A DNA stretch of 64,000 nucleotides from Gavia stellata. Its lineage: Eukaryota > Chordata > Aves > Gaviiformes > Gaviidae. The notes under the pieces are model-generated. The model was given only the letters and a program-made list of their open reading frames with translations. It did not search any database and had not been told where the DNA came from. How positions within the stretch are numbered: position 1 is the first letter of the stretch; the number at the start of each line of letters is the position of its first letter. The position numbers and the translations under genes were made by a program. The stretch covers positions 4,774,001-4,838,000 of the forward strand of contig NC_082600.1 in assembly GCF_030936135.1 (NCBI RefSeq), written 5' to 3'. This document shows, piece after piece, positions 213 to 6,200 of this stretch.

Positions 213-3200
213 CTGCAGTTGTGTGGAAAAAAAAAAAGAGGTTTTGTTTAGTCATTTTGACTGCAACACTTTAAAAAAAATAAAAATCTTATTTTTGAAG
301 AAGCCAAACTGAAAGCTGAAGCCTCCATTCAGAAAACTGACCTATTTCTTTATATACATTATCATCCTTGCTCTTACTTTCATATCTGGTACTTGAAAGC
401 ATTTCCAGAAGCAATAGTTGTGCAGGTTGAATTGGTGGTCTCAACGTGCACCTGCATTTCTGCTTAGAGCTAACATCAAATATTGCAGCAGTCAAACTTG
501 AATATCAACAGCCAAAGCAGCAGTACCTCCCGCCAGTACAGTAGTGTGCTGATTACACCACATTCAATTCTTTGCCTGCTTGCTATTTCTGGAAGATTCC
601 CATGTCTTTGCTAGTTACACTTCGACAGATCTTTATAGCATACGTCTTTGAGCTGGAGTCAAACTGAGAATAAACCAAGTCAGTTTGAATTTGTTGTTCT
701 TTCTCCTAATCTCTCCCCAAATCCCCCAACTGAATTGATAGCTCTAAATGTCTCCTCCCCACCCCGCCTGAACACAAAGCAACTTCAGTCACAGTTGAAG
801 TTAACTGCTGTTTAGAGTCCCAGCTAATGGTTCATTGTTTCTGACTCCAGTATCAGTCTAACCACTAACTTCTGTTTGCAGAAAATATTATTGAAACTGA
901 AAACCTCAAGAAAAAAAGGCTTTTCTTTAGAAGTTTCTCAATACAAGTGTACTTTTAAACCTTGCTGCCCATAAAGAACATTGTCTAAGCTCTCTTTCCC
1001 TCTGAAGTACTACAAGTCTGCCTGCTTTGGTATTTCAAGGTCTCCCAAGAAGTTTCTTACCACTCTTCTAACTCTCAAAATATCTATCCTTGTGAAGAGA
1101 AGTAACACCCAGAACATTCAAAGATTCTCAGGTAACTACAGAAGAATATGCTCACTAGTTGCTAAACTCTTTTACCTACCTAGTTATTCTAGTTCTGAGT
1201 AATGAAGGGTAAAACAATGCAATCAGTTTATCTTCTTCTAGAGGATAACAAGGATAATCCAGTAATACCAGCAAGCTACCCTATTACAATTCAGAACACA
1301 GATGGAAGCCACAGGAGCAATTCAGCTCTAAGTCACAGGTCATTTGGCTTCTATTAAAATTACACAGTTCCCTGCACAGGTAAGTTTATGTTGAGGGCTG
1401 CTGCAATGCAAGCAGAGGAAGCTACCACTCTGTATAAACTTGGGATGACCTAAGATTAGAGACTCTCTCATTGAACATAGTCTTTCACCTGCCCAAATCT
1501 GTGTTATGGAGCCCTCTTTTTCTCCTTTCCACCCATAGCTGTAACAGCCCTTTAGACCTCCACGTCACAGCACTGTTTGGAGGCATCCTCTGTTGCTGCC
1601 CATGACATATAGGCCCCCTCGAAAACCCTCCTCTCTAATCCCTTCCCAACCCTTTTACAGAGTCCTGTTCATTTCACAGGTAGACAAGGGTTCCCATGCC
1701 CTTCTGAGAAGGAGAGGAATTTCTTCCCACCCAGTCACTAACATCCGAATAGCAAGAAAGACAGAGGTGAACAGAAACCCACAGGAACTGAGGTGGTATC
1801 TCCCAGCCCTCTCCTCACTCATTTCCTGAGCCTTCACTGGTCATATTTTGAGGATTCCCCAAGATCTGAAGAGAGGGTGACAGGAAACACACTAGGTTAA
1901 ATCTACATGAATAGATGCAGAGTGCTCCAGGCTCCTTTCCTTCACAGAAGTGTGTTGCTGAGCTCACCACTGAGAACACAGTGGGCAGGCCCATTTAGAA
2001 AGACACACCTTTTGGCCAGCTATGCAGGAAACTAACATTTCTGTTGAGCCTTCAGAAATGCAAAAGAGAATCTCTTCTACATACTTCTTAAGTGCCCTAA
2101 ATGTAAACCCCAGAGGCAGCAAAAACCTCCAGCATCTAGGGAGATCTGGGCAGACGTAAGTGTCTACACTTGTCATGAGCTAATACACTAGAGATTCCTC
2201 TCTGCCAAAGAAGGTCTCCAGATAATGCCACAGCTTTATAGTGCCTTGCTGCCAGCAGTGGCATAAGCAAATCTAGCCTTAAGTATCTGAACCACTATTT
2301 GAGCACAAGCACTCATTTTATCTTCCATAGCAAAGAATATTCCCATATTTACAGCCCACAGTAGCTGCCATTCACAGTGTTCACTCACCAACTGGACTGG
2401 AGAAGATAAAGCACAATGGATAAGAAACTCTTCCATCATCATGCTGATACTTGTAACTATACACAATAAATGTTTTTTCTGAGGTTAAAGAAATTAAGAA
2501 ATCAATTATTTTATCAGGATATAATCCTCAGTTATCACAGCTCCATGCAGGCACAAATAAGTCTTGCATTCTAGAAGATGCTTTAAATTTGGCAAGTAGT
2601 CTCACTGTTCTCCTGTTTTCACTTCCATATTTGACCTTCAGAACTGACCCCGCCTGTCTTTACCAACCTCTGCCACAGCTGGGTGTGAGGCTGTCTCTGT
2701 ATTACTGTTTGACATCAGAGCGCTAAAAATCACCCCTTCATCGCAAATATTCCTCTCCCAGCTTTGTAAAAAAGACTTCCCACACCCATCAATGTGTTTC
2801 TGCCTTAATGAAAGCCAAATTCTTTCTTTGCAGACTAAGCGCTTCATTGTTTCAGGTGCTTTGCTGAATTTGAACTGAAGTTTTAGCTAGGACTCCTGCT
2901 TTAAAGCCTCCTACTGCACTATGGTCATGAAAGGAAAGATTGAGAATGGCACGTGGAATAGTGCCAGCCAGCTTCTGACGATAACAGAGGCAGATATTTT
3001 CTTCACTTGTAAGTGAAGTACCCCTCTTATTTCATCTAGTTAAAGAATAATTTACTTATCCCTCTTTTTTTCCTTTTTTTTTTTTAATATAGGGATTCTT
3101 CCCTAGATCACATGCCTACAGCAGTCCCTGAATCAGTAACTGCAGCAGAACAGCAAGGGCGATATTGCTGAAAAAGTACCAAAACAGATCCTAAGTCACA

Positions 3201-6200
3201 CAGGCAGTTTTCTGTATTTAGAAGTAGCCACATACAAAACTGGTGCATTTTACTCCCTTCTTTACATTAACAGCAGCGTGGCTTCGCTTTACTTCCCCAA
3301 ACATTATATAGTCTAAAAGGAAATAAAATCTCAGGAAAAGCTTAAACATGTCAGTCATTGTTTCAACAAGCAGGACAACTGCTCAGTGCATCATGAGAAC
3401 TGATCCCTAGGTTATCTCATAAATAAAGTATCTGTAAAGTCGCACTACAGGCAAGTATTGGCCTAAGAAGGTGAAGTCCAACTCTGAACATTTTGAACAG
3501 CTTCCAGGAGTGAGTAAGAGCAAATGTCAGCAGCACAAGAAGGATATCGAGGTTGTCTCTCAGGCAGCTCATCTTTTAGCTCATCAGGAGAAATACCCTG
3601 GTAACATTAAACACAAGCAATATTTGAACAAATGATCTTGCACTTGAAGGTATACTACGAAGGCTTTAAGCAGAATAATGGAATAGTGAAACAGCTGTAA
3701 GTTAGATGTACATTTACAGTTGAACTGATAATGATCTCTCCCACAAATTACTAGAGCAGTTTAGGAAAACTCGTGTGCTAATAGATTCCTATGACTAAAC
3801 ATAGAATTAATGCTAGCATGAATAATCACCCCTATTTTAGGCATAACGAGTTTAGAAAACATTTTTTGCTCTAGTTGGATATGCTGGCAGCTACCATGCT
3901 TTTCTAACTCCAGTGCTACACAGAAGTAAGCGAGTACACAACAAAAAGTATCTGTGAAAATCAGCTACATAAATGGTGCTTTTGAAAAATTCAGTCCTTC
4001 CTCCTCGAGCAAGAAAAAAGAGAGTCCCCATTCTGTTCAAATATTACATTAACTTCTATGTTCTAGGGAATAAGAGCTGCGGTTAATGCTCAAATCCCTG
4101 GGAAGGATTTAATTTTGCCCTATGTACCATTAAGAAACACTACACGCTAGGCTGACCTTATTATGCCTGCCACCTATCAAATTTAGAGTCTGTAGAGGAT
4201 TAACGATCCTAGCTTCTAATTGATGGCAGATCAGCTCAGAGTCAAATATGCAGATCTATGTGGAAACACAGCAGAAATCTCTTCAAAAAGCTAGCAAGTG
4301 CCAAAGATGCTTTTTACAGTTTTATCATAAAAGCTTTAAAATAACTTTTTTGTGGCATTAATTAGTCAACTCAATTGCTCCTGCATATTTCCACTATTAA
4401 TAGTGCTGTGCTTTACATGCAGAGTGACCATGCATTTAAATAAGCTCACGACCCAAATTAGATTAAGAGTTTGATAACAATTTGAAACTAAGGCAGTACC
4501 TTAGAGACAACAATACATGGCAGGCTGAAGATACTCTTATTTACAATTCATTTAACAAACCTCATGCTCCTCATCCAGTACCACCAACTGCTTATCCTTG
4601 TCGATTTTCACTATAAAGCAAAATAAAACATAGGTCAATGTTTTTTCAATAGATTTATGCAATGTATGCATGAAGCTTTCTCACATTCCCCCAAAAGTAT
4701 ATCCCTTGTGCTTCCATTCTGCTTCTTCAGTCTATCCCATGACTTCACAAAATCACAGAAGTCAAGAGAAGTGAACAGTCTAAGTGCTGTCCATTGCAAT
4801 ACACTCTTCTCAAATTTCAAAGACAGAAATGTCAAACTTCCCTACTTAAAGGCTACAAAATTTACAAACTCAAAGTGACTGTGCCTTGACATTTTTTACT
4901 ATCATTTTACAAAGAGTGGTAGCCTCTGAGATGCAATTAAGTATAAATACTCTACTAAGAGCAGATGCTGTCTTGTATCACAAGTACAGTGTTGCTTGAC
5001 TGTTAAAGTTATAGGCAGAATTGGAAGTACTGAAGTTCATACAAGAAACAGCCTCTTAGCTCACGTTTACTTGTTAGAGCGGCAGCATTACACAGGAAGG
5101 AAAAGAGGAGATAGGATTTTCTGCAAGACCTAGTAATTTTCATCAGACATGTTTTTAACTTACTTATAATGGCAGCATTGTTGGTTTCTTTACGAAACCG
5201 GAATTTTCTCAGTTTCTCCACCAGGTCTTCAGCAACATCACAAACCACCAGAGATTCACTCTAAAAAAAGGAAATGGCAGAGGGGAGGGAAAGATAAATC
5301 TTTCTAGTAAACCAGAAAAAAACCCCATGTCACGCATGTGTGTGTATAAGCCCTACTAAAGCGGAACTGCATGCAACCTGCCCAAAGTTCCAGAACATAT
5401 ACATAAACCAGAAAAAACATGGATGAAAGTAGTTTTTAAAAACACAATAGCAGAACACTTATCTGTTTTAATATCCCTCCTCAAAGCCACACGGTTAACT
5501 AGAAATATTTTATTAGCTATTCCTGAAGTGGGATTATTCTCATAGCTCTTAGAAGTAAGCAAATTTTACAGTTCATTTACCAAGACAAGTCCTGAAAAAA
5601 GGAAGCCCCTCAGAGTGGCAGTAAACTGGCTAAAGTCATTTAAGCATTTAAAATAGTAGGAGCTACTATTAGTAATCCAGAAGAACACAGATAGTAATCA
5701 AGGGTCACTGCTTATTTTTACCTACAAAAATATTAACCGAACTTTTGAGATTTACACACAGAGAGAGCATTTAAGACATTTTAATCAAAAGCATGCATAC
5801 TTTCCCCCATGTGCTTGTATATTACTAACTCCAAGTTTTCAGAAGATATGTCCAGATAACGTATTAGTCATCATGCTGAAGATGGGGAAGGAAATTATTA
5901 TTTCACAAGCAACCATGCAGGTTATCTTCCATTACACATGCAATTTTTTAACTGTACCAAGCCAACCACTGCCATTTCCTGAGCAACATTTTATACACAC
6001 AACCTCTATTGCCACAATTAAGAGATTCATGCCACCTAGATGAAGAAAAGTTATTTAACATCTCCAACTTATTCATATTATTGCATTTGTAAATTCCTAA
6101 GGCATCAAGGCTTTTGTGCCAAAACAACTGTTACTTCAAGACATCTTTAAAAGAACTGCTCAAATAAAAAAATAGTTGCAAGATTACCTACCACAAGCTC

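Follow-up and report, generated by a model that had tools for sequence, protein, structure and literature searches.

The question raised by this locus is how the coding sequence of GMFB in Gavia stellata is carried across a break at which the conserved protein stops after Gln-Pro-Arg and no GT donor follows. The gene lies on the minus strand of the stretch of DNA that we analysed (the window, 64,000 bases on contig C7 of the searched genome, which has 1185 contigs and a size of 1.32 Gb). Six of its exons fall within the window and were analysed here, the remainder of the gene lying beyond position 1, and the protein frame was used to place the exon ends. Introns 1, 2, 3, and 5, four of the five introns inside the window, have GT-AG ends. 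For intron 4, the first-pass annotation had proposed a U12-type AT-AC intron at 2472..3547, and these boundaries turned out to be correct to the base. Its remark that the break lacks a GT donor also held, the closest GT downstream of exon 4 being 11 nt in and matching the consensus poorly, at 4 of 9 positions. The features are as follows.

7533..7535, minus strand: coding part of GMFB exon 1 (ATG), followed by a GT donor (from sequence)
5164..5260, minus strand: GMFB exon 2 (sequence and protein match)
4561..4610, minus strand: GMFB exon 3 (sequence and protein match)
3548..3597, minus strand: GMFB exon 4, ending ...CAACCTCG, phase 2 (sequence and protein match)
2472..3547, minus strand: GMFB intron 4, 1076 nt, almost certainly U12-type AT-AC (sites, scan, and join tests; human counterpart)
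3540..3547, minus strand: predicted U12-type 5' splice site ATATCCTT (exact consensus match)
2484..2492, minus strand: predicted U12-type branch site TTCTTTAAC (same letters in human GMFB)
2472..2473, minus strand: 3' terminal AC of the intron (from sequence)
2389..2471, minus strand: GMFB exon 5, starting ATTTATTGTG at 2471 (sequence and protein match)
139..212, minus strand: GMFB exon 6 (sequence and protein match)

The consensus of the U12 donor is ATATCCTT, in its general form (A/G)TATCCTT, and that of the U12 branch site is given in textbooks as TTCCTTAAC. Intron 4 starts ATATCCTTCT and ends TTCTTTAACCTCAGAAAAAAC (minus strand, 3547 down to 2472), and its donor matches the (A/G)TATCCTT consensus exactly at 3547-3540. 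The branch site TTCTTTAAC has one mismatch to TTCCTTAAC, as does the human GMFB branch site; its second A is 13 nt and its first A 14 nt from the intron end, which bears out the earlier description of an AC end with a branch site about 13 nt upstream. Either A of the branch site is described as usable in U12 introns, with an optimal branch-to-end distance of 11-13 nt (PMC3584512), and the 13 nt seen here is therefore inside this optimum. U12 introns are described in the same source as lacking a pyrimidine tract, and the low pyrimidine content of intron 4 between positions -20 and -3 (50%, the lowest of the five introns in the window, the others having 67-89%) matches this expectation. Past the branch site, the intron has a CTCAG at 2479-2483 (minus strand), with its AG 7 nt before the end of the intron. 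The human GMFB intron 4 printed in PMC7244321 also has an AG at nearly the same place.

Joining exons 4 and 5 at the AT-AC boundaries (3548/2471) places CG before ATTTATTG and completes the Arg codon CGA, and the joined exons in the window give a partial protein of 119 residues with no stop. Matches were obtained to 19 distinct solved sequences. GMFB 1v6f, which we take to be mouse GMFB, ranked first (245.5 bits, E value of 5.9e-73), ahead of four GMFG sequences at 216.5 bits or less. The joined protein is identical to 1v6f at 113 of 118 residues and to GMFG at 99 of 119, and no gap interrupts the junction, ERQPR/FIVYSYK, in the alignments to 1v6f (GMFB) and to 4jd2, 1vkk, and 1wfs (GMFG), the GMFG version of this segment reading FVVYSYK. 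The claim that the CG-A join restores the family sequence is thus upheld. The Pfam Cofilin_ADF domain (PF00241) is found on residues 15-115 of the joined protein (4.5e-29), and the encoded protein accordingly has both an ADF domain and a closer match to GMFB than to GMFG. The spliced form covers positions 2-102 of the Cofilin_ADF profile, whereas the read-through form covers only 2-55; retention of intron 4 leads to nonfamily residues and then a stop, the false tail that the first-pass annotation had foreseen.

Comparison with another vertebrate gave the same picture, the human GMFB sites having nearly the same letters. An eLife paper from 2020 classes intron 4 of human GMFB as a minor intron and prints its sites as TCGatatcc at the 5' end and ttctttaacttgagaaaaacCTT at the 3' end (PMC7244321). 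As described in that paper, Srsf10 minigenes received either the stretch of human GMFB from exon 4 through exon 5, intron included, or the sites of the intron alone, and a minigene with only the GMFB minor sites was spliced to exon 4. Like the bird intron, the printed human intron is located between exons 4 and 5, with the donor TCG/atatcc, the branch site ttctttaac, an A-rich run before the end, and an AC end (PMC7244321). The differences from that sequence are small: the stretch from the branch site to the exon is ctcagaaaaaac (12 nt) in the bird versus ttgagaaaaac (11 nt) in human, and exon 5 starts with ATT in the bird versus CTT in human, giving CGA or CGC, both of which encode Arg (PMC7244321).

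The bird intron also shares its donor, branch site, and AC end with U12-type AT-AC introns as these are described in general (PMC2831892, PMC7367187, and PMC3584512), along with the short branch-to-end distance and the weak pyrimidine tract, and no feature that we tested separates it from them. U12-type introns are reported to be strongly conserved among vertebrates, with conservation across all eight lineages compared in PMC2831892, Gallus included, in 156 of 180 clusters, and the eutherian and vertebrate comparisons presented there record no U12-type insertion. In the Ensembl annotation of Gallus gallus, as tabulated in PMC7367187, AT-AC introns make up 18% of the U12-type introns and 0.01% of the U2-type introns, and many of the odd-ended chicken U2-type introns resemble annotation that is a few bases off. 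The 18% share indicates that annotation does carry AT-AC introns. The slightly misplaced ends, for their part, give some support to the first-pass concern that default annotation would truncate or mis-splice this gene.

Splice site motifs are short, and we asked how often they arise by chance. The window has three exact copies of ATATCCTT on its two strands, and one of these, that of GMFB intron 4, pairs with a branch site (at most one mismatch) and an AC, the limit for pairing being 3 kb with the AC following. In 60 windows generated by a first-order Markov model, the same pairs occurred 0.28 times per window at any place, and the donor and branch pair alone, with placement ignored, is therefore not remarkable. 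When one mismatch was allowed in each part, 11 AT-AC-type pairs were found in the window versus 4.9 per Markov window, and 3 more of these 11 share the branch site of GMFB intron 4; the scan covered donors of the AT-AC type. The placement of the sites is what excludes chance, since both are located at the two points where the protein breaks. In the Markov windows, about 128,000 positions contain 1.9 donors and 6.7 branch sites; at these densities, and with 7 positions allowed for the branch site, rough arithmetic puts the chance that both sites fall at the two break points at about 5e-9.

Could the segment instead be removed as an ordinary U2-type intron whose GT-AG sites are shifted? We joined 12 GT donors (from -47 to +249 relative to the end of exon 4) with 6 AG acceptors (from -80 to +39 relative to the start of exon 5); a further GT at -49 is outside this donor set. 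Four of the joins are in frame and without a stop, as such an intron would need, but all four insert a nonfamily stretch starting YPSCAAD that is absent from the four aligned family proteins, two of them also lose FIVYSYK, and their donors match only 2-4 of 9 consensus positions. None of the 12 by 6 joins near the break restores the family sequence, and we consider a GT-AG intron extremely improbable here. The upstream CTCAG suggests a different solution, a U12 intron with an AT-AG end, and the AG in the printed human stretch would be in keeping with it (PMC7244321). Ending the intron at this CAG shifts the frame, however, and the product reads RKNIYCV and then stops. The AG is also only 6 nt past the second branch-site A, below the optimum of 11-13 nt, and U12 introns are said to disfavour the AT-AG combination (PMC3584512); use of this AG as the regular end has next to no probability in our judgment.

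It could also be argued that this GMFB copy has decayed and has lost its GT donor through a lesion. We found no support for this in the six exons of the window, the end of the gene lying beyond position 1. Against it, all six exons are open and keep the close identity to 1v6f given above, and the donor has the same letters as the human intron printed in PMC7244321, making decay hardly credible. Some points speak against the U12-type AT-AC reading itself: the branch site is one position off the textbook TTCCTTAAC, the AG 7 nt before the AC end would shift the frame if used, and chance alone, with no regard to where the sites fall, would supply 0.28 pairs as good as this one per window. Yet it is the AC end that brings back the family sequence, which neither the upstream AG nor any GT-AG join that we tested could do. 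From its sequence, GMFB intron 4 is almost certainly a U12-type AT-AC minor spliceosomal intron, orthologous to the human GMFB minor intron 4.

By the established scheme for such introns, the U11 snRNP would pair with ATATCCTT and U12 snRNA with TTCTTTAAC, leaving the branch adenosine bulged, after which U4atac/U6atac and U5 would join. The AC 13 nt further on would mark the end of the intron, and ligation of the exons would form Arg-67 from CG and A. The genome has a whole-model match to U12 snRNA of 150.3 bits. A second whole-model match of 91 bits (G000:C3:37960276-37960445) may be a variant copy or a pseudogene, and Rfam gave no matches on the window at gathering scores. The AG that precedes the AC end in both bird and human may be a decoy or a timing element whose occasional use gives a truncated GMFB, although we regard this as very unlikely; if true, the decoy AG would tie GMFB output to the activity of the minor spliceosome.

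The first-pass annotation had left open whether the intron was already catalogued for GMFB, and the human intron is indeed in print (PMC7244321). In a search of open-licence PMC papers without their supplements, that paper was the only one found to name GMFB along with U12-type or minor introns, and none was found that names GMFG along with U12-type introns; GMFB also turns up with the minor spliceosome in PMC10019834 and with U12 in PMC3931319. As judged by its sites, the bird intron is an ordinary orthologue of the known human minor intron and is not new. The finding has little weight as a discovery, as a known minor intron has kept its sites in the Gavia stellata genome, and its use lies in the gene model, which needs the AT-AC junction here. 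For the paralogue, a Cofilin_ADF profile search of the genome gave five places, and tblastn with GMFB in these loci gave one chance match (E value of 3.5). The GMFB exons of the window were missed as well, and the result is therefore no evidence that a GMFG gene is absent.

Upstream, GMFB (minus strand, ATG at 7535) stands head to head with a plus-strand frame that starts MAAVFLVTLYEYSPLFYITVV at 9253 (window 7533-9253) and is presumably CGRRF1. The G+C content reaches 71-77% over 7000-7999 and 70% over 9000-9499 but falls to 44-53% in between, so that two separate promoters, both rich in G+C and about 1.7 kb from each other, are likely. An open frame at 20402-20752 (plus strand) encodes a C3HC4 RING finger (PF13920, 2.5e-13) and is probably the last exon of that plus-strand gene. 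Another, at 35579-36082 (plus strand), encodes a Vts1-like domain (PF25479, 5.5e-07) and is, we assume, the first coding exon of a gene with a name ending in 4A.
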